Below the pieces are notes generated by a model, which was not told the DNA's origin, ran no database searches, and was given only the letters and a program-made list of their open reading frames with translations. From Thermoplasmata archaeon (GTDB lineage Archaea; Thermoplasmatota; Thermoplasmata; Thermoplasmatales; Thermoplasmataceae), in the NCBI GenBank assembly GCA_021826785.1, contig JAKAYN010000001.1, forward strand, positions 1-16,157: DNA of 16,157 nt. Direction: 5' to 3'. Position 1 is the stretch's first letter. The number at the start of each line of letters is the position of its first letter. Made by a program: the position numbers and the translations under genes. This document shows positions 2,896 through 11,991 of the stretch, piece by piece.

Positions 2896-3239
2896 ATATG
2901 TATGAAATGTTAACAAATTTTGAGATGTCAATATTGATGGGTGATGTTGATCGCAGTTATAAAATATTAAGTAATGCAAAGGAGCATTATTTAAAGCATG
3001 GAAAAAACAACAATGCAGAGTTTATAGATAACATCATGAAATTTTTACAGAGCGAGCTAAATGCTCAGGAGCTTGAATCAGAGTTGCTCCAGAAAAAGTA
3101 CAGAAGATTATTTCTTGACGATGTGAGTGATTACGATGGTTACATAAAGTCCATGGTTTATTACCTTGAATACTCAGTTAGCAGGTACAATATAAGATAT
3201 CCGTACTTTGATTCAAAGCGTGCAAATGATATTATTTAA
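2892..3239 (+). CDS. Small soluble hypothetical protein co-translated with nuoM
   Basis: A 115-residue protein I do not recognise. Its ATG overlaps the nuoM stop (ATGA at 2892-2895) and follows GGTGGTG about five bases upstream, so it is very probably translated with nuoM as the last gene of the nuo operon. The sequence has no membrane segment, no signal peptide and only one possible start region (Met1, Met3 or Met6). It is rich in charged residues and Tyr and looks helical: residues 7-85 could form two or three amphipathic helices, including the Glu/Leu-rich stretch LNAQELESELLQKKYRR (56-72). It contains no cysteine, so it does not carry an iron-sulfur cluster. It could be an accessory or assembly factor of the complex, or simply a hitch-hiking gene. 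Its stop overlaps the stop of the convergent aldolase gene (3236-3239, TTAA). Coding status is supported by codon use and tight spacing only. Confidence 0.75.
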   Translation: MNMYEMLTNFEMSILMGDVDRSYKILSNAKEHYLKHGKNNNAEFIDNIMKFLQSELNAQELESELLQKKYRRLFLDDVSDYDGYIKSMVYYLEYSVSRYNIRYPYFDSKRANDII

Positions 3240-4099
3240 ATGTTATCACCATTTTTTAATATATTTTTAATAATTTTTTCAAGTTCTTTTTCCTTGGTTT
3301 CGGAAAGCGGATAGAATGGCGGTCTTGGATAACCACAACTGTAACCCTTTATAATTCTTACAAGGCTGTAGTTTGCGGAATAAATACCAAATGGTTTGGC
3401 TGCATTTATAACTTTATTTATTAAGATCTGGAATTTGAATGCATCGTTTGAATTGATATTTTTATATAGATAATTAATTATATTTGGCATGTAATTGCCT
3501 GCGGCAGAAACAGCGCCGTCAACTCCAGCTCTCAGTGCTGCAAATATATGTGTGCTTGGCCCTGCGAGAACGATAAGATCATTATTTATGTTTTTATATT
3601 CGAGCATGTGCATTATATCGTTCACTGTATCCTTTATCCCAATTATATTACCACCAAGTTTAATGATCTTTTCAAGCATTTTTGAATCAACATCATGGTT
3701 TGTCATTCTTGGATAATTATAAACAATTGTTCTATAATATTTTGATAGATCTAGAAAATACCTTATTATTGAATCGGCATCGAGATCGCTGTAATAGTAT
3801 GGTGGCACCGATGAAATTGCAAAGTATTCCTTCTTTTTTGCTGCCATGGCAAGCTCTATGCTCTCATCGAGGTTTAAAGAACCAATTTGCATTATTAATT
3901 TATCTCCGTCTATATCAAGATCGTTTATAATCTTTAATTTTTCATTAAAATTTAATGATAAACCAAGACCGTTTGTTCCGGCAATAAAAAGCTTATCGAT
4001 GCCAGACTTCAATAAAGTTTCACAGTGGTTTCTCAAAAGATCAATATCTAAAACATTGTTTATAAATGGAGTTATAACAGGAACAATCTTCAACGGCAT
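3236..4099 (-). CDS. kdgA: 2-keto-3-deoxygluconate aldolase (DHDPS/N-acetylneuraminate lyase family)
   Basis: Class I, Schiff-base aldolase of the DHDPS/NAL TIM-barrel superfamily, 287 residues. It is expected to cleave 2-keto-3-deoxygluconate to pyruvate and glyceraldehyde in the nonphosphorylative Entner-Doudoroff pathway. Visible are the family loop GTNGLG (41-46), the catalytic Tyr127 in YNYP, and the Schiff-base Lys156 in GIKDT. The closest match from memory is Sulfolobus KD(P)G aldolase, which shares GIDKLF and GYPRPP (256-261). The residues that clamp the substrate phosphate in Sulfolobus appear changed: the Arg after YYYP is Asp105, Arg237 aligns with Lys235, and Ser241 with Ile239; Tyr129 is kept. 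This fits a KDG-specific enzyme like the one described from Picrophilus torridus. The start has no Shine-Dalgarno; a TATA-like element lies about 35 bp upstream, inside the end of the preceding gene. It may therefore have its own promoter, although only 29 bp separate it from the beta-oxidation operon. Confidence 0.87.
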   Translation of the reverse strand: MPLKIVPVITPFINNVLDIDLLRNHCETLLKSGIDKLFIAGTNGLGLSLNFNEKLKIINDLDIDGDKLIMQIGSLNLDESIELAMAAKKKEYFAISSVPPYYYSDLDADSIIRYFLDLSKYYRTIVYNYPRMTNHDVDSKMLEKIIKLGGNIIGIKDTVNDIMHMLEYKNINNDLIVLAGPSTHIFAALRAGVDGAVSAAGNYMPNIINYLYKNINSNDAFKFQILINKVINAAKPFGIYSANYSLVRIIKGYSCGYPRPPFYPLSETKEKELEKIIKNILKNGDNI

Positions 4100-4128: not shown

Positions 4129-4139
4129 TTATATAAATC
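4129..4139 (-). promoter_or_regulatory. TATA-like element for the KDG aldolase gene
   Basis: On the minus strand this reads GATTTATATAA, overlapping the stop codon of the upstream acyl-CoA dehydrogenase-like gene. Its centre is about 35 bp from the aldolase ATG, which would give a very short leader, consistent with the absence of a Shine-Dalgarno sequence. The region is AT-rich, so chance occurrence is possible. Confidence 0.4.
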
Positions 4140-5076
4140 CAGATTTTTCACCGTATATAGAATCGGATAATTCTCTTTTTATATTCATAAAGCCAAGCGA
4201 TTTTAATGTTACTGAATCCCTGTAATATTTTTCAATACCAAAATCTGTGAAAAATCCATAGCCACCATGTATATTCACAGCTGCTCTTGTTACATCAATT
4301 ATTATTGACGATATAAAGTTCTTTGCAAAGTCTATTCTACCATTACCGTAAAGATAGTATTTTATAATATCGAGTTTGCTCATTATATCAGATATTGTGT
4401 AGGCAACTGGTCCAAAATCCTTTATCTTTGTATTAAATAATTTTCTAATCTTTGAATATTCGAAGGCCTTTTCCATAGAACCATACATTAAACCAATGGA
4501 CATTGCACAGAGTTCTGGATCCATATATTTTAGGGCTTTTATAAACGATTCAGAATTTCCAATCTTCTTTTTGGTCTCTACCTTTAAATCACCAAACTTT
4601 ATGCCTCTAAAGCCTAGCGATTCCCTTACCTCATATGTTCCAGAAACATAGAATAGATCATTGTTAATGACCGCAAGTGCATCATTGCCTTTTATGAAAA
4701 AGACATCGTATATTTTATCACCATCGTTCTTATTTGAAAAGCTAACAGCGGCTGTCTTCTTACCGGATGCTATGTCAGCGGATATATCTTCTATCTCAGA
4801 GTTTTCTATGGACTTTATGTATATGCCCGATATATAAGCATAAAGAGCCACAGATGGAGAGTATTTTGAAACCTCCTCTATTATGGCCATGCTTGCTTTT
4901 TTATCAAGTTCTAAACCGCCATACTTTGAGCTTACATTACTGTTTATTATGCCCTGTGATGATAGCTTTTCTATTAAATCGTTATCAATGCCCTTTGATT
5001 CTATATCCTTTTCATCAAGATTCTTCGATGAAAATTCTTTGATGTTATCACGTATTATATTGATTTCATCCTCCAT
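4129..5076 (-). CDS. Degenerate acyl-CoA dehydrogenase-like protein, probable non-catalytic partner subunit
   Basis: A 315-residue member of the acyl-CoA dehydrogenase (ACAD) fold, shorter than the usual 370-400. The N-terminal helical part has KYGGLELDK (51-59). The middle beta domain has lost the TEPxxGSD and W/F-I-T-N motifs that hold the flavin ring. The C-terminal domain keeps the second-subunit FAD contacts: YSKIRKLF (207-214, Arg211 and Phe214) and the HGGYGF loop (270-275). The catalytic-base motif (IxEGT) is gone; the equivalent stretch after YYRDS reads VTLKSLGF. It is therefore probably inactive alone. The gene directly upstream encodes an ACAD with the opposite losses, so a heteromer like the split ACADs of mycobacterial steroid degradation is likely. 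Start: GTG at 5085 lies inside the Shine-Dalgarno GGTGAT; ATG at 5076, four bases beyond that site, is preferred. The upstream gene's stop (5080-5078) lies between the Shine-Dalgarno and this ATG, so translation is probably coupled. Confidence 0.85.
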   Translation of the reverse strand: MEDEINIIRDNIKEFSSKNLDEKDIESKGIDNDLIEKLSSQGIINSNVSSKYGGLELDKKASMAIIEEVSKYSPSVALYAYISGIYIKSIENSEIEDISADIASGKKTAAVSFSNKNDGDKIYDVFFIKGNDALAVINNDLFYVSGTYEVRESLGFRGIKFGDLKVETKKKIGNSESFIKALKYMDPELCAMSIGLMYGSMEKAFEYSKIRKLFNTKIKDFGPVAYTISDIMSKLDIIKYYLYGNGRIDFAKNFISSIIIDVTRAAVNIHGGYGFFTDFGIEKYYRDSVTLKSLGFMNIKRELSDSIYGEKSGFI

Positions 5077-5077
5077 T

Positions 5078-6154
5078 TCAATCACCCTTTAAAAGTGTCC
5101 TTGCTATTATCAAATTCTCAACGTCTGTTGTACCCTCCCATATCTCCATAATCTTAGCATTTCTAAATACAATGTCAAGGTTATATTTGTATCCTGAAAG
5201 GCCTGTTACTTCAAGTGCCTTCTCTGCAGCGTAAACGGCCGTTTCGCCTGCGTATGCCTTTGCGGCGCTTGTATCTTCAGGTTTTGTAACACTGTTAACA
5301 AGGTTCATCGTGGCATTGTATGTTAAAAGCTTTGCTGCCTGTATTCTTGTGTAAAGCTTTGCGATTTCAAACATTGTGTTTTCATCCTTTATATTGTTCG
5401 ATTTAACATATTTCATCATTGCATCAAATGCGCCTTCTGCTATGCCAAGTGCCTGCGCTGCAACATATACTCGGCTTATATCAAAGAAGATCATGATATA
5501 GTAAAAGCCCATACCCTCCTCTCCAACAAGCATGGATTCATCAACCTCAAGGTTGTTAAATTTCAATTCTGCGGTATCTGTTGCCCTTACACCAAGCTTG
5601 CCGTGAAGCTTACTGGCAGAAAAGCCCTTTGATTTCGTATCGACAAGAAAAACACTTAAACCGAGGTGCCTCTTTGATTCATTAGAGGTCCTTGCAAGTA
5701 CAAGTATATAATCTGCAATGCTACCATTTGTTATAAAGATCTTGCTCCCATTTATTATATACTTATTTCCTGATTTAACCGCTGTTGTTTTTATTCCGGC
5801 AACATCACTGCCACCTGACGGTTCTGTAACCCCAAGGCCAAGTATCTTTTTACCGGACATTACATCGGATAGTATCTTTTTTTGAGCATCGTTTCCGAAG
5901 AGATTAATTACCTCATTGCCAAAGTATGGCGTTGTAACGGATATGCCCAGACCTGCATCAACCCTGCACAGCTCCTCTATACCAATAACTATCTTTATCG
6001 GATTTGTCATGTCTATTGCTGAATTAATGCCTTTTTTTCTTAGCTCTTCCGGATATATTTCATCTTTATCGTATTTTCGAATGTTATCATCGGTGAAGTT
6101 TTCAAGTGCGAATTCCTTAACCTTTTTCCTGAAATCATCATACTCCTCGAACAT
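5078..6154 (-). CDS. Acyl-CoA dehydrogenase, catalytic subunit
   Basis: FAD-dependent acyl-CoA dehydrogenase, first oxidation of beta-oxidation (acyl-CoA to trans-2-enoyl-CoA, electrons to ETF). With the ATG at 6154 it has 358 residues; the frame stays open to 6199, but that would overlap the thiolase gene by 44 bp, whereas ATG at 6154 lies one base after the thiolase stop with GGAG upstream. Motifs: VTEPSGGSD (109-117), KIFITNG (138-144), GVRATDTAELKF (188-199), and the catalytic Glu340 in IWEGTTDV. Unusually, the region that normally reads R-x-x-F-G-x-P-I, whose Arg and Phe contact the neighbouring subunit's FAD, is shortened and replaced (about 248-266). The QxxGGxGY loop is also degenerate, reading TGLSGY (317-322). 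These are exactly the elements retained in the next gene downstream. The chain-length preference cannot be read from the sequence. It lies in an operon with thiolase and acyl-CoA synthetase genes. Confidence 0.92.
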   Translation of the reverse strand: MFEEYDDFRKKVKEFALENFTDDNIRKYDKDEIYPEELRKKGINSAIDMTNPIKIVIGIEELCRVDAGLGISVTTPYFGNEVINLFGNDAQKKILSDVMSGKKILGLGVTEPSGGSDVAGIKTTAVKSGNKYIINGSKIFITNGSIADYILVLARTSNESKRHLGLSVFLVDTKSKGFSASKLHGKLGVRATDTAELKFNNLEVDESMLVGEEGMGFYYIMIFFDISRVYVAAQALGIAEGAFDAMMKYVKSNNIKDENTMFEIAKLYTRIQAAKLLTYNATMNLVNSVTKPEDTSAAKAYAGETAVYAAEKALEVTGLSGYKYNLDIVFRNAKIMEIWEGTTDVENLIIARTLLKGD

Positions 6155-6155
6155 T

Positions 6156-7331
6156 TTAAACACGCTCCAGTAACATGGAATATCCCTGACCACCACCAAC
6201 GCAGAGCGTTGCTATGCCATATCTCTTTCCTTTTTCCATAAGCTGCCTTGCCAGGGTGCCTGCAATCCTGGCACCCGTTGCACCTAATGGATGACCTATG
6301 GATATTCCACCACCGTTTATGTTAACCTTTTTTAAATCAAGATTAAAAGCCTTCACAGCGTTTAAAACAACAACGGCGAAAGCCTCATTTATTTCCCAGA
6401 GGTCTATATCCTGAGGATCAAGCTTGTTCCTTTCAAGAACCTTTTTCGTTGCCGGTACCGGGCCATCGCCCATTATTGTTGGATCTACGCCGGCGGCTGC
6501 AAAATCAACTATCCTTGCAAGTGGTTTTAAGCCATATTCATTCATTGCTTTCTCCGACATGAGCATTACCATTGATGCACCATCATTGAGTGGCGCCGAA
6601 TTACCTGCCGTTATAAGGCCATCCTCTTTAAATGCAGGCTTTAGCTTCTCCATGCTTTCTAATGATGCATCATCACGTATGCTTAGATCCTTTTCAATTG
6701 TTATTTCCTCGACGGTTACAGGCATTATTTCGCCCTTCATAAAGCCGGATTCATATGCTTTTTTTGCCCTTAGATGTGAGTTGTATGAGTATTCGTCCAT
6801 TTCCTTTCTTGTTATGCCTTTAATATATGCAAGCTTCTCTGCGGTTAAACCCATATTGTATGAAACGTTCATATCATACTTTGAATATTTAGGATTTAAC
6901 ATTAATGACATGTTCGGCTTTATGTATGGATTTGAAATACCCAATGGCACATGTGTCATATGCTCCATGCCACCGGCTATTACTATATCTGATTTCTCAG
7001 TCATTATCTCCATTGAGCCTATAGAAACCGCATTCAATGATGATGAGCATGCCCTGTCAAGCGACATTGCAGGTACACTCACAGGTAACTCCGAGAGCAA
7101 AACAGGGTGCCTGCCACCGTATGTCCAGTTTTCGCCGGCTTGAAATGCACAGCCGGTTATTACATCTCCAATTTCTTCCGGATTTATAGAGGTATCCTCA
7201 ATGGATTTCCTTATCAGTCTTGCCAGCAGATCATCCATCCTTAAATCGTTGTAAACATCCCTTTCGGGATCGTTTGGCCTTGCCCTTGAAAATGGTACCC
7301 TTTTAAAATAAACCAAATACGCATCATTCAT
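6156..7331 (-). CDS. Acetyl-CoA C-acyltransferase (thiolase)
   Basis: Thiolase-superfamily enzyme of 391 residues, the usual length. It performs the last step of beta-oxidation, thiolytic cleavage of 3-ketoacyl-CoA to acetyl-CoA and a shortened acyl-CoA. The nucleophile is Cys95 in DRACSSSLNAVSIG (92-105). Also present are GGMEHMTHVP (120-129), NEAFAV (315-320), the GHPLGATGAR loop with His347 (346-355), and the second catalytic Cys377 in LCVGGGQG (376-383). These four blocks in this order identify an active degradative-type thiolase, unlike the archaeal thiolase-like proteins of the mevalonate locus, which need a DUF35 partner. The GTG at 7340 lies within the Shine-Dalgarno; ATG at 7331, four bases after GGTGAT, is the preferred start. 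That site overlaps the end of the acyl-CoA synthetase gene, so the two are translationally coupled. Confidence 0.95.
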   Translation of the reverse strand: MNDAYLVYFKRVPFSRARPNDPERDVYNDLRMDDLLARLIRKSIEDTSINPEEIGDVITGCAFQAGENWTYGGRHPVLLSELPVSVPAMSLDRACSSSLNAVSIGSMEIMTEKSDIVIAGGMEHMTHVPLGISNPYIKPNMSLMLNPKYSKYDMNVSYNMGLTAEKLAYIKGITRKEMDEYSYNSHLRAKKAYESGFMKGEIMPVTVEEITIEKDLSIRDDASLESMEKLKPAFKEDGLITAGNSAPLNDGASMVMLMSEKAMNEYGLKPLARIVDFAAAGVDPTIMGDGPVPATKKVLERNKLDPQDIDLWEINEAFAVVVLNAVKAFNLDLKKVNINGGGISIGHPLGATGARIAGTLARQLMEKGKRYGIATLCVGGGQGYSMLLERV

Positions 7332-7336
7332 TAGAA

Positions 7337-8914
7337 TCACCTTAACTTATCCCTTAATACTTTTTTATCTATCTTACCAGTGCTGGTTTTTGGCATCTCG
7401 TTAACAAAGATGAAATCATCTGGCACCCAGAACTTTGCTATTCTACCCGTATCAACGAACTCTGACATCTTTATTTTTATTTCGTCCAAACTTGCATTTC
7501 CATTTATAAAGGCCACAGGCCTTTCTCCCCATTTATCATCGGCCTTTGCAACAACGGCAACCTCGTTTACGCCCTGTATTGTGCTTATTAAATCCTCAAG
7601 TATCAATGATGGTATAAACTCGCCGCCAGATTTTATTGCGTCCTTTTCTCTGTCAACGATTTTTATATAGCCATATTCATCTATGACTGCAAGATCGCCA
7701 GTATGAAGCCAGCCATCTTTCCAAAGCTCCTCTGATTTTTCTTTATCCTTTATATATCCATTTGTTAACCATGGCGCCCTTACAATGATCTCGCCTATCT
7801 CTTTGCCATTGTTTTCAACGTCCTTGTTGTTGTTCACAACCCTGAGACTTACCATTGGTATCGGAATGCCTGTTTTTAACCTGAATTCAAATTTCTCCTC
7901 ATCGCTTTTGTTTATGACCTTTCTGTTATAAACGGCAAGTGTAAGTATCGGTGCAGTCTCTGACATACCGTAGCCGCTTACAACATCTATGCCGTAGGCC
8001 CTTGCACGCTCCGCAAGTCCGCGGCTTAGTGCTGCACCGCCTATTATAACCTTTAGGTTTAAATCCTGCAACAACTGCTTGGCATTTTTATCTGAAATCA
8101 GCATGTAAAGTATTGTTGGAACCATGGCAGACATGGAGACTTTCTCTTTGTTCATGGTTTCAAGTATCCTTGGTATATCATATTTTCCTGGAAGTACGTA
8201 TTTTATACCATTCATAATAGATGTATATGGTATTCCCCATGCATGAACATGGAACATTGGAACAAGCGGCATGACAACATCGTTTATATTATATTTTATT
8301 GGCTCATTTGACAGTGCACCTATTGATGCAATTGAGTGAAGTACCAGCTGTCTATGCGTGAATGATACACCCTTTGGAAGCCCTGTTGTTCCTGATGTAA
8401 AAAATAATGTTGCTGTATCATTTTCATCAGGTTCCTTGAATTCTAAATCTGAATCCTTTAAAAGGTCATCAAAATAGTATACAGGAATATTTATATCAAA
8501 GTGTTTGTGATCCTTTGAGTTTACAATTATACCCTTTATAAAATTCAGATAAGCAGCGTTCTTAACAATTAAATCCATAAAAACCTCATCGATCATTATG
8601 TATGAATCATCTGCCCTTTGCATTGTGTAAAATATTATCTCTGGAGGATATCTTATATTAACTGTGTGCATAACAGCGCCTATCATTGGTATTGAATAAT
8701 ATCCATACATGTACATTAATGAATCGTAGTCTATAACGGCAATGACGTCTTTTCTATTTACTCCAATTTTAATCAGATTTTTTGATAAATTCATGGCATT
8801 TTTATAGAATTCCTTGTATGTTAAAGATCTGTCCATATATACAATCTTTTGGTCTCCATTGTTCATTACAGCGGTTTCCAGAAGATTGTTTATTGTTAAA
8901 TCGAAACCATTCAT
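7337..8914 (-). CDS. Fatty acyl-CoA synthetase (AMP-forming)
   Basis: ANL-superfamily adenylating enzyme, 525 residues, that activates carboxylic acids to acyl-CoA with ATP and CoA. Motifs in order: the phosphate loop TSGTTGLPKG (173-182), PMFHVHAWG (219-227), GYGMSET (314-320), GWLHTGDLA (401-409) with the ATP-ribose Asp, DREKD (421-425), and the C-terminal catalytic lysine in TSTGK (Lys514), which swings in for adenylation. The histidine-rich PMFHVHAWG segment and the overall length resemble medium- or long-chain fatty acid ligases rather than acetyl-CoA synthetase (about 650 residues). The position at the head of a beta-oxidation operon supports a fatty acid substrate, but chain length is inferred. 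It is the first gene of the minus-strand operon; the ATG at 8914 has no Shine-Dalgarno, consistent with a leaderless or short-leader transcript. Its last codons carry the ribosome binding site of the thiolase. Confidence 0.92.
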   Translation of the reverse strand: MNGFDLTINNLLETAVMNNGDQKIVYMDRSLTYKEFYKNAMNLSKNLIKIGVNRKDVIAVIDYDSLMYMYGYYSIPMIGAVMHTVNIRYPPEIIFYTMQRADDSYIMIDEVFMDLIVKNAAYLNFIKGIIVNSKDHKHFDINIPVYYFDDLLKDSDLEFKEPDENDTATLFFTSGTTGLPKGVSFTHRQLVLHSIASIGALSNEPIKYNINDVVMPLVPMFHVHAWGIPYTSIMNGIKYVLPGKYDIPRILETMNKEKVSMSAMVPTILYMLISDKNAKQLLQDLNLKVIIGGAALSRGLAERARAYGIDVVSGYGMSETAPILTLAVYNRKVINKSDEEKFEFRLKTGIPIPMVSLRVVNNNKDVENNGKEIGEIIVRAPWLTNGYIKDKEKSEELWKDGWLHTGDLAVIDEYGYIKIVDREKDAIKSGGEFIPSLILEDLISTIQGVNEVAVVAKADDKWGERPVAFINGNASLDEIKIKMSEFVDTGRIAKFWVPDDFIFVNEMPKTSTGKIDKKVLRDKLR

Positions 8915-9065
8915 GTATTTACATATAATATTTCTTAATAATGTTTTCGATCATTATAATTTAAAAACTTTTTATTAGTAAACAAAAATAATAATAAATT
9001 TTACATAAACCGTTTATTCTGTTAACTTAATAAACATTTAAATAATAAATTCCAATTTAACAGGT
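8915..9065. promoter_or_regulatory. Divergent promoter region of the beta-oxidation locus
   Basis: 151 bp, over 80 percent AT, separating the acyl-CoA synthetase operon (minus) from the dehydrogenase/hydratase gene (plus). On the plus strand ATTTAAATAATAAAT at 9036-9050 is centred about 24 bp from the ATG at 9066, as expected of a TATA box for a leaderless mRNA. On the minus strand the TATA-like sequences (AATTATAATG near 8957-8966 and AATATTATATG near 8924-8935) are not clearly placed. Small symmetric sequences (AAACCGTTT at 9008-9016, GTTAAC at 9021-9026) could be operators but are too short to call. The shared region would allow joint control of all beta-oxidation genes. No regulator gene adjoins it. 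Confidence 0.55.
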
Positions 9066-10991
9066 ATGATAAAAACTGTGACTGTTATTGGTGCAGGCCT
9101 TATGGGCCACGGCATAGGTGAGGTTTTTGCCTTGAATGGATACAATGTGCGTTTATATGATTCATTTCCAGAGGCATTAGACAATGCAAAAAAATCTATA
9201 GAGAACAGCCTTTTAAAGCTTTTAAATTCCGGAAAGATAAAAAAGGATGATGTTGATTCTATAAAGGCAAGGATAAGATACGACAAAAACCTTGATGATG
9301 CATTAAATGGTACAGACTTTGTAATAGAGGCCGTTCCTGAAAGGCTAGATTTAAAAATATCTGTTCTTTCCGATGTTTCCAAAAAAACTGATGCAATTAT
9401 TGCAACGAATACATCCAGTATAAGAATATCTGAGATAGCAGAGCACATTAATAAACCAGAGAGGTTCCTTGGCATGCACTTCTTTAATCCACCGGTTATA
9501 CTTAAACTCGTCGAAGTTATAAAAGGAGAAAAAACGGCAGAAAGCGTATTCAATGATGTTTATGATCTTGCCAAATCAATTAAAAAGATACCAATAAAGG
9601 TTATGAAGGACACACCCGGATTCGTTGTTAACAGGATCTCAGGCCCTGAAACTTTATTATTCTGCTTTATTTACCAGAATGGCATTGCAAAACCAGAGGA
9701 GGTTGATGCATATATAAAGGCACAGGGCATGCCAATGGGACCTTACGAGTTGTTCGACTACGTTGGCCTTGACATAATAAAGGATCTGTTCGATTACTAT
9801 GGAAAAGAATTATCAAGTGATTACCAGCAGTGCAATGTAATATCTGATCTTGTAAATTCTGGAAAAAAGGGCATGAAAACTGGCTCTGGCTTTTACAAAT
9901 GGGAGAATGGAAAGGCTTTAATACCAGAGGCAAAGCCCAGCAGCAAGATAAACCTAATGGATATATTTTCACTAGAAATAAATGAGGCTGTAAAGCTTAT
10001 AGAGGATGGAATTGCAACGCCAGAGGATATAGAAACCGGTGTGAAATACGGGCTTAACAGACCATTTGGCCCTATAAGCGTGGCAGAGGGGCTTTCAAAC
10101 AAGGAGGTAAAGGATGCGCTTTTAAAACTTTACGATCTAACAAAATTTGAAACTTTTAAGCCTGCAAAGTCCATAGATTCTGGCAATTTAAAGACAATAA
10201 TACATAAGAAGATAGCTGTTAATGAAATTCATGAAGAGAAAAAATATATTATTGAGGAGCTAAACAACAGGGTTTTAAAATTAACATTGAACAATGGTAA
10301 AAACAATCTTATCACAAATGAACTTGTAAATGAACTTGATGAAGAAATAGATAAAATATCAAAAAACAGTGATATTAATACTGTCGTTATAACAGGAAAT
10401 GATGTATTTTCAGCCGGTGCTGATTTATCACAGTTTTTCAGGAACTCGGCGGATTTTATGAAAAATGCAGAGCACGTTGAAAGGGTATTCGATAAAATAA
10501 GAAAGACCGGAAAGATATTTATAGCGGCAATAAAGGGCTATGCCCTTGGCGGGGGTCTTGAGCTTGCACTTGCCTGTGATATAAGGATGTCCACAGAATC
10601 TGCAATTATTGGATTTCCTGAGACATCACTTGGTTTAATACCAGGATATGGTGGAAGTCAGCGCCTTTACAAATTAATAGGCATGTCCAGGGCGGTGGCA
10701 ATGATACTTACTGCGGAGCGCATAACAGGCAAAAAGGCACTTGAATACGGAATAGTCCATAGATTATTTGAAAGTGATGATGAGGTGATGTCATACGCAA
10801 AGGATCTTTCAGAAAGAATTGCACCAGTTTCCATTGATCTTGCAAAGAAATTGATATACTCTGAGATGAACTTTGACTCTGGCCTTGACTTTGAGGCTGC
10901 AGCGGTTGGAGTTCTTTATTCAACCGATGATCTTAGAGAGGGCATCTCGGCATTTTTGTCAAAGAGAAAGCCAGATTATAAAGGCCATTAA
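9066..10991 (+). CDS. Fused 3-hydroxyacyl-CoA dehydrogenase / enoyl-CoA hydratase
   Basis: A 641-residue bifunctional enzyme for the two middle steps of beta-oxidation: hydration of trans-2-enoyl-CoA and NAD-dependent oxidation of (S)-3-hydroxyacyl-CoA. Residues 1-285 are the dehydrogenase: Rossmann motif GAGLMGHGIGE (9-19), EAVPERLDLK (88-97), NTSS (115-118), catalytic His138 and Asn141 in MHFFNPP with Glu150, and DTPGFVVNRI (182-191). A second helical domain follows (about 295-370). Residues 395-641 are the crotonase domain: SAGADLS (449-455), the oxyanion-hole region GYALGGGLE (491-499), and catalytic Glu499 and Glu519, spaced 20 residues apart as in rat enoyl-CoA hydratase. The order dehydrogenase then hydratase is the archaeal one (as in Sulfolobales and Archaeoglobus) and the reverse of bacterial FadB. 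The C terminus is short, with no extra domain. ATG at 9066 starts directly with the Rossmann fold and has a TATA box about 24 bp upstream. Confidence 0.95.
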   Translation: MIKTVTVIGAGLMGHGIGEVFALNGYNVRLYDSFPEALDNAKKSIENSLLKLLNSGKIKKDDVDSIKARIRYDKNLDDALNGTDFVIEAVPERLDLKISVLSDVSKKTDAIIATNTSSIRISEIAEHINKPERFLGMHFFNPPVILKLVEVIKGEKTAESVFNDVYDLAKSIKKIPIKVMKDTPGFVVNRISGPETLLFCFIYQNGIAKPEEVDAYIKAQGMPMGPYELFDYVGLDIIKDLFDYYGKELSSDYQQCNVISDLVNSGKKGMKTGSGFYKWENGKALIPEAKPSSKINLMDIFSLEINEAVKLIEDGIATPEDIETGVKYGLNRPFGPISVAEGLSNKEVKDALLKLYDLTKFETFKPAKSIDSGNLKTIIHKKIAVNEIHEEKKYIIEELNNRVLKLTLNNGKNNLITNELVNELDEEIDKISKNSDINTVVITGNDVFSAGADLSQFFRNSADFMKNAEHVERVFDKIRKTGKIFIAAIKGYALGGGLELALACDIRMSTESAIIGFPETSLGLIPGYGGSQRLYKLIGMSRAVAMILTAERITGKKALEYGIVHRLFESDDEVMSYAKDLSERIAPVSIDLAKKLIYSEMNFDSGLDFEAAAVGVLYSTDDLREGISAFLSKRKPDYKGH

Positions 10992-11028
10992 ATTAAAAAT
11001 TATTAATACAATATTTTTATTCTTATTA

Positions 11029-11991
11029 ATGGACGAATACAGTTACGGTATTATTATATATAAAAAGGATGGGGATTTTGAATACCTTGTGCTTTTAAGA
11101 TCTGAAGGCTGGCTTGACTTTCCAAAGGGGCATATAGAAAAAAATGAGAATGAATTTGATGCCGCAATAAGGGAAACGTTTGAGGAAACGCATATAATGA
11201 TAAATCGCAATAACATAGAAAAATTCTTTTCATATACAATGGATTACTCATTCAAAAATAATGATGAAATAATTAATAAGCATACAAGGATGTTCCTTGC
11301 AGAATACAACGGCGATGATATAGTAATATCCAAGGAGCATGTTTCTTATCAATGGTTAAATTACCATGAACTTCTGAGAAAATTAAAGTACATCAATCAA
11401 AAGGATATGATATATTATACAGAGAAATATCTTAAAAGAAGGGATGCCATCAATGAGATAAATATGAAATATAAGGAATTACCATTTAGAATTAAAGACT
11501 GGAGGCTTAGCAATAATTTTGTGCCTGGTGAGGGTAATTACAATGCAGAGATATTTTTTATAGGCCAGGCACCTGGAAAAAACGAGGATAAAAACAGAAG
11601 GCCATTCATTGGAAGAAGCGGAAAACTTTTAAATTCAATGCTTTCAATGATTAATATTGAGCGTGAGAACGTATACATAACGAGCGTTGTCCAGTTCTAT
11701 CCTGAAAAGAATCGGGTTCCATCGATTAAAGAGATAGATTTGTGTTTACCATATTTAAAGAGGCAGCTTGAGATAATAAGTCCAAAGATCATTGTTTTAC
11801 TTGGAAGAGTAGCAGCAAATTCTATTCTTGGCATAGAGGATATAGAAAATAATCATGGAAAAATTGTAAATAACAAATATTTTATTACATACCACCCTGC
11901 AGCCGCGCTGAGATCAAAAACTGTACTTGCAAAAATGGAAGAAGACTTTGTAAAATTAAAAAATTATATTAGTAAAATAAAAAATCAATGA
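11029..11991 (+). CDS. Nudix hydrolase fused to a family 4-like uracil-DNA glycosylase
   Basis: A 320-residue two-domain protein. Residues 1-140 are a Nudix hydrolase: the Nudix box starts at Gly34 (GHIEKNE) and continues with RETFEET (48-54); the usual Gly near its end is His55. The FPKGHIE and RETFEE pattern is most like diadenosine tetraphosphate hydrolases (NUDT2 type). Residues about 150-318 match family 4 uracil-DNA glycosylase: VPGEGN (165-170), GQAPGKNED (179-187), RRPFIGRSGKLLN (190-202), PKIIVLLG (252-259) and YHPAAALR (288-295). Three of the four cysteines that bind [4Fe-4S] in this family are absent: the N-terminal CxxC falls around Pro152-Ile155, and the VKC motif reads VQF (Phe223). 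Only Cys239 remains. The frame is open 52 codons further upstream, but that would run into the preceding gene, and Nudix homology starts at this ATG. The last 7 bp overlap the convergent transporter gene. Confidence 0.88.
   Translation: MDEYSYGIIIYKKDGDFEYLVLLRSEGWLDFPKGHIEKNENEFDAAIRETFEETHIMINRNNIEKFFSYTMDYSFKNNDEIINKHTRMFLAEYNGDDIVISKEHVSYQWLNYHELLRKLKYINQKDMIYYTEKYLKRRDAINEINMKYKELPFRIKDWRLSNNFVPGEGNYNAEIFFIGQAPGKNEDKNRRPFIGRSGKLLNSMLSMINIERENVYITSVVQFYPEKNRVPSIKEIDLCLPYLKRQLEIISPKIIVLLGRVAANSILGIEDIENNHGKIVNNKYFITYHPAAALRSKTVLAKMEEDFVKLKNYISKIKNQ

Follow-up and report, generated by a model that had tools for sequence, protein, structure and literature searches.

Two adjacent acyl-CoA dehydrogenase (ACAD) genes, designated L and S, lie on the reverse strand of the window, by which we mean the whole 16,157-nucleotide stretch of Thermoplasmata archaeon DNA that was analysed, from a genome of the Picrophilus type (Table 1). 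The preliminary description had placed two ACAD genes here with the start of the second just past the stop of the first, and this arrangement was found, the gap being one base; an alternative GTG start of S at position 5085, upstream of the ATG, would overlap L. In Pfam searches the N-terminal, middle and C-terminal ACAD domains of L all scored above the gathering score, as did the N- and C-terminal domains of S, for which Pfam gave no middle-domain match. The middle segment of S is short in the alignment (median of 96 residues versus 122-124), and the AF2 model of S showed a confident acyl-CoA dehydrogenase fold (pLDDT 90.1, pTM 0.90) that full-length ACAD structures match over residues 1-314; chains of heteromeric ACADs were absent among the 50 Foldseek/VIA matches listed for S, an absence that carries no weight. 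In the nearest genome compared, from the same genus (G055), L is 91% and S 75% identical, and the closest named S protein, from Picrophilus oshimae, is 74% identical.

Table 1. Genes of the L/S locus and active-site segments of the two proteins (window positions; fractions are proteins carrying the residue in the alignment).
Feature	Position	Strand	Remarks
S, beta-like acyl-CoA dehydrogenase homologue, 315 aa	4132..5076	(-)	ATG at 5076; stop 4129-4131; Pfam N and C domains
HGGYGF loop of S, residues 270-275	4252..4269	(-)	both Gly in 81/81 S
R211-x-x-F214 of S, FAD clamp	4435..4446	(-)	81/81 S
L/S junction TGA-A-ATG, one base between L stop and S start	5074..5080	(-)	
L, alpha-like acyl-CoA dehydrogenase, 358 aa	5081..6154	(-)	stop 5078-5080; Pfam N, middle and C domains
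Catalytic Glu340 of L, in W339-E340-G-T	5135..5137	(-)	Glu in 82/82 L, 0/81 S
Degenerate Q-x-x-GG loop of L, TGLSGYKY, residues 317-324	5183..5206	(-)	second Gly 0/82, Gln 0/82
Degenerate R-x-x-F-G region of L, residues 249-258, reads K-S-N-N-I-K-D	5381..5410	(-)	Arg 0/82, Phe 0/82
TEPSGGSD of L, residues 110-117	5804..5827	(-)	
Thiolase, directly upstream of L	6159..7340	(-)	NCBIfam PRK06445, above cut-off
Acyl-CoA ligase	7340..8914	(-)	NCBIfam PRK06187, long-chain-fatty-acid--CoA ligase, above cut-off
3-hydroxyacyl-CoA dehydrogenase / enoyl-CoA hydratase fusion, divergent	9066..10988	(+)	

A thiolase gene lies immediately upstream of L at 81/85 fetched L loci; three of the remaining loci start at contig ends (L070, L101 and L152), and L103 is without it. 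This thiolase-L-S operon supports the role in fatty acid oxidation that had been proposed for the pair. Homologues of the window's ligase and of its hydroxyacyl-CoA dehydrogenase/hydratase occur near 33/85 and 35/85 L loci, respectively, some of them distant. The gene for ETF-alpha is present in all 77 genomes of the family and falls within the fetched stretch at 34/85 loci, on the opposite strand in 33. Elsewhere in the window, S is followed by a gene of the dihydrodipicolinate synthase family (3239-4099, reverse strand), a homologue of which was seen among the fetched loci only at L048, from the same genus, and near L103; a single open reading frame at 10942-11988 combines a NUDIX domain with a uracil-DNA glycosylase domain.

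Active-site residues were counted after 82 L and 81 S proteins had been aligned with 30 further ACADs of Thermoplasmata and 34 from bacteria. Six loci in which one gene is broken or cut (L097, L104, L112, L117, L119 and L152) were omitted whole, with the loss of some intact partners as well, and the L protein of L103 is counted among the 82. The catalytic Glu, found in every L and no S, is present in 26/30 of the other Thermoplasmata ACADs and 33/34 of the bacterial ones. Conversely, the Arg of the FAD clamp is kept by all S and by all of the comparison proteins (30/30 and 34/34) and is lost from all L, and the same division holds for the clamp Phe (29/30 and 34/34) and for the second Gly of the GG loop (29/30 and 34/34). 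The first Gly of this loop is kept in 75/82 L and the loop is two residues shorter in 79/82, so that it is degenerate rather than gone. At the position equivalent to Gln365 of short-chain ACAD (SCAD), every S has Gln (66) or Asn (15), whereas Gln occurs in no L; an Arg of helix G on the substrate side (SCAD R272 by motif) is present in 82/82 L and 0/81 S. Since the division of residues is fixed across 82 L and 81 S when compared with other ACADs, it is not a matter of chance. The preliminary description, in which L keeps TEPSGGSD, FITNG (residues 140-144) and Glu340 but lacks R-x-x-F-G and has a degenerate GG loop, and S lacks the flavin-ring motifs and Glu but keeps Arg211, Phe214 and HGGYGF, was confirmed, and an intact FAD partner site was found in 0/82 L. 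The residue directly before the catalytic Glu (L residue 339, window 5138-5140) is Trp in 82/82 L and mostly Tyr or Gly in other ACADs. Two protein database searches were also performed, in each of which the best 120 of 7999 scored candidates were listed; in the 120 listed relatives of L, the Glu, the helix-G Arg and the Trp before the Glu are each present in 120/120, and an Arg stands in the clamp column in 8/120, as read from a quick alignment in which this column is poorly aligned.

S lies directly downstream of L at 84/85 fetched L loci (69/70 in one set and 15/15 in another), and where the junction could be read, in 66 pairs of the family set, the spacing ranges from −17 to +6 bases, with start codons picked by script. 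The conserved pairing that had been put forward for checking is seen at nearly every locus, and L without an adjacent S is found at 1/85 only. This exception, L103 (8001-9062, reverse strand), is a second L gene in its genome (G060); its product has also lost the FAD clamp, it adjoins a 3-hydroxyacyl-CoA dehydrogenase gene, and it may rely on the S protein encoded by the main pair of that genome. Among the 77 genomes of the family, an L orthologue is present in 69, one of them fragmentary (G056); seven genomes, each less than 80% complete, have neither gene, and in one (G044) only a fragment of S was seen, at a contig end. Of the family genomes, 35 are 90% or more complete and no more than 5% contaminated; all of these carry both L and S, with a broken S frame in one of them (G061, Thermoplasma volcanium GSS1). 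In an even sample of 300 genomes of the class, S orthologues were found in 61 and L in 62, the additional L (G122) being cut by a contig end, and the pair also occurs in further families of this class. How widely S is distributed was judged chiefly from profile searches of family, class and phylum genomes. Both profiles left a wide gap to the next ACADs, from 5e-87 to 4e-59 for S (the broken S of T. volcanium aside) and from 1e-154 to 1e-93 for L (cut genes aside), and in 292 genomes of the phylum the S profile matched 31 at E values up to 1e-60, all within the order. Proteins of the S type, with no middle domain and a length of about 300-360 residues, numbered 12 in one protein search, and six such proteins, the window's S included, stood at the top of the 120 listed in another.

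Distance matrices of L and S agree over 81 pairs (r 0.842, versus 0.089 for the best of 1000 permutations), and in the tree L and S each form one group with support of 100. One genome of family f1 (G059, contig C3) carries a second L-S pair, L101, which falls among family f3 in the L subtree and again in the S subtree, as if the pair had been transferred as one unit. In T. volcanium (L104), the S gene at approximately 8080-9090 is split into two collinear frames, 55% and 60% identical to S of G057, by one frame change in the deposited sequence, and L is intact. This frame change, together with the shortened middle domain and the fast evolution of S, which changes approximately 2.4 times faster than L, could suggest that S is a decaying paralogue heading for loss. 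However, S is kept beside L in all 35 of the high-quality family genomes, the broken frame of T. volcanium included, and in other families of the class, it has 23 positions with at least 95% identity, and its predicted fold is confident; we therefore regard decay as a very improbable explanation. The FAD-clamp segments of S have stayed fixed, with a mean conservation of 0.85 in the segment 268-288 versus 0.50 overall. A second possibility is that L works as a homomer, binding FAD through other residues, and that S takes no part in completing the FAD site but has a non-catalytic role as a regulator or scaffold, for example in docking of ETF or thiolase. L does retain the full set of flavin-ring and catalytic residues, and one L paralogue stands alone, yet this reading leaves unexplained why the residues that S invariably keeps are precisely the FAD-clamp residues lost by L, and why the rest of S has drifted. 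We consider it improbable.

In human SCAD, one monomer makes the contacts to the flavin ring and ribityl chain, and its neighbour contributes R297, Q365 and G369, as described in excerpts of PMC13027082; according to excerpts of PMC12369846, the FAD of human isovaleryl-CoA dehydrogenase (IVD) is likewise shared between monomers. When these SCAD positions were located in L and S from motifs rather than from a structure, the same-monomer set was found in L and the adjacent-monomer set in S. That this split falls between L and S points to a shared FAD site, and the proposed correspondence of L and S to own-subunit and neighbour-subunit FAD contacts agrees with the published accounts of SCAD and of ChsE, as far as the excerpts consulted (PMC13027082, PMC11153573) describe them. 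Taken together, the comparison of residues and the pairing of the genes lend good support to the earlier proposal of a heteromer: L and S very probably combine as subunits of a single, obligately heteromeric acyl-CoA dehydrogenase with a split FAD site. In such an enzyme, L would hold the flavin ring, bind acyl-CoA and supply Glu340 as the catalytic base. S would form no active site itself but would clamp the L-bound FAD at its ADP end through Arg211, Phe214 and the Q/N-x-x-GG loop. The pair, expressed from the thiolase-L-S operon, would catalyse the first step of fatty acid beta-oxidation, presumably on an acyl-CoA substrate with ETF as the likely electron acceptor. By analogy only, the physical complex may be an alpha2beta2 tetramer with two FADs. 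A fused model, in which one relative with both genes in the same frame (L096) was read through the L stop into one chain and nine other in-frame relatives served as the alignment (10 rows in total), gave a pTM of 0.51, which does not fix the interface, and we therefore make no claim about it.

As a control, we turned to one replicon of Cupriavidus metallidurans and took from it eight pairs of neighbouring ACADs. These are not characterised enzymes, and their chains were labelled alpha-like or beta-like after the motifs seen. Every pair (8/8) consists of exactly one alpha-like and one beta-like chain, with a division similar to that of L and S: the clamp Arg is present in 8/8 beta-like and 1/8 alpha-like chains, the clamp Phe in 8/8 and 0/8, and the second Gly of the GG loop in 5/8 and 0/8. 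The Glu of the alpha-like chains is at the LCAD/IVD site in 8/8 and at the MCAD site in 0/8, the reverse of L, in which the LCAD/IVD site is Ser in 20/20 rows. No Cupriavidus protein reached the IpdE2 cut-off, the best scoring 107.5 of 450 bits.

This difference in the catalytic base, MCAD-type in L and at the LCAD/IVD site in all eight bacterial alpha-like chains, suggests that the L/S pair arose independently of the bacterial alpha2beta2 ACADs, an origin that the trees neither show nor reject. When L and S were forced into one clade, after removal of nine long or odd rows (La_L103 among them), the log-likelihood was 35.9 above that of the free tree in a comparison of 60 rows with 58 (AU p 0.795), which allows a single duplication giving L and S. 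The account we lean towards is that the pair is the Thermoplasmata's own invention: the gene of an MCAD/BCD-type homomer would have been duplicated in tandem, the copies would have lost opposite halves of the site, and the resulting obligate pair would have become the conserved dehydrogenase of beta-oxidation and been fixed in a thiolase-L-S operon with coupled translation. Alternatively, L and S may have descended by transfer from the bacterial steroid/dicarboxylate alpha2beta2 family (ChsE, IpdE, Pim). The division of labour is identical, and AU tests rejected neither L with the bacterial alpha clade (p 0.40) nor S with bacterial beta (p 0.45), the bacterial chains in these tests being the Cupriavidus pairs, with no characterised ChsE in the tree. 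Against transfer stands the position of the Glu; moreover, the free tree sets the Cupriavidus alpha and beta chains apart from L and S and joins them (support 92) to four homomers that lie on the same replicon and also carry the LCAD/IVD-site Glu, and PDB profiles favour homomers for S (171 bits versus 70 for Tcur3481), with Tcur3483 and 4x28 not among the 60 profile matches listed for L. Transfer from bacteria thus appears rather unlikely.

Unlike the homotetrameric butyryl/short-chain ACADs (MmgC 5lnx, BCD 5ol2, CarC 6fah and SCAD), in which one chain holds both halves of the site, L and S divide it, and they share the ChsE-like gene architecture of adjacent genes with complementary loss of Glu/flavin and FAD-clamp residues. 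In the alpha2beta2 steroid ACADs, alpha binds the isoalloxazine and the substrate and carries the Glu, and beta contacts the ADP-ribose, with the LCAD-type Glu conserved in ACADs of M. tuberculosis (excerpts of PMC11153573), and there is one FAD per alpha-beta interface (excerpts of PMC8399759). As far as these excerpts go, ChsE1-ChsE2, ChsE4-ChsE5, IpdE1-IpdE2 and Tcur3481-Tcur3483 are likewise encoded by two ACAD genes with the same alpha/beta division as L/S. Dicarboxylyl-CoA dehydrogenase pairs of the PimC/PimD type also have two ACAD genes in one operon and were suggested to be possibly heterotetrameric (excerpts of PMC12543098). L and S scored below the curated NCBIfam cut-offs for pimC (TIGR03204; L 86 bits versus 624) and pimD (TIGR03203; L 69 and S 29 versus 653), and the IpdE2 cut-off (NF050027, 450 bits) was not reached, the best score being 28 for S of a relative, with the window's S not listed. 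In the literature searched, which comprised listings and excerpts of some papers and included few subscription papers, we found no description of an archaeal heteromeric ACAD. The split-site design is already known from steroid degraders, and L/S would be a variant of it, differing from the steroid pairs in being archaeal, in its place in a thiolase operon, in its MCAD-type Glu and in a weak sequence relation. If our reading is correct, split-site ACADs serve not only the bacterial breakdown of steroids and dicarboxylates but also the oxidation of fatty acids in archaea, there with another class of catalytic base, and L/S would be a naturally occurring example of duplicates with reciprocal losses, open to testing one subunit at a time.
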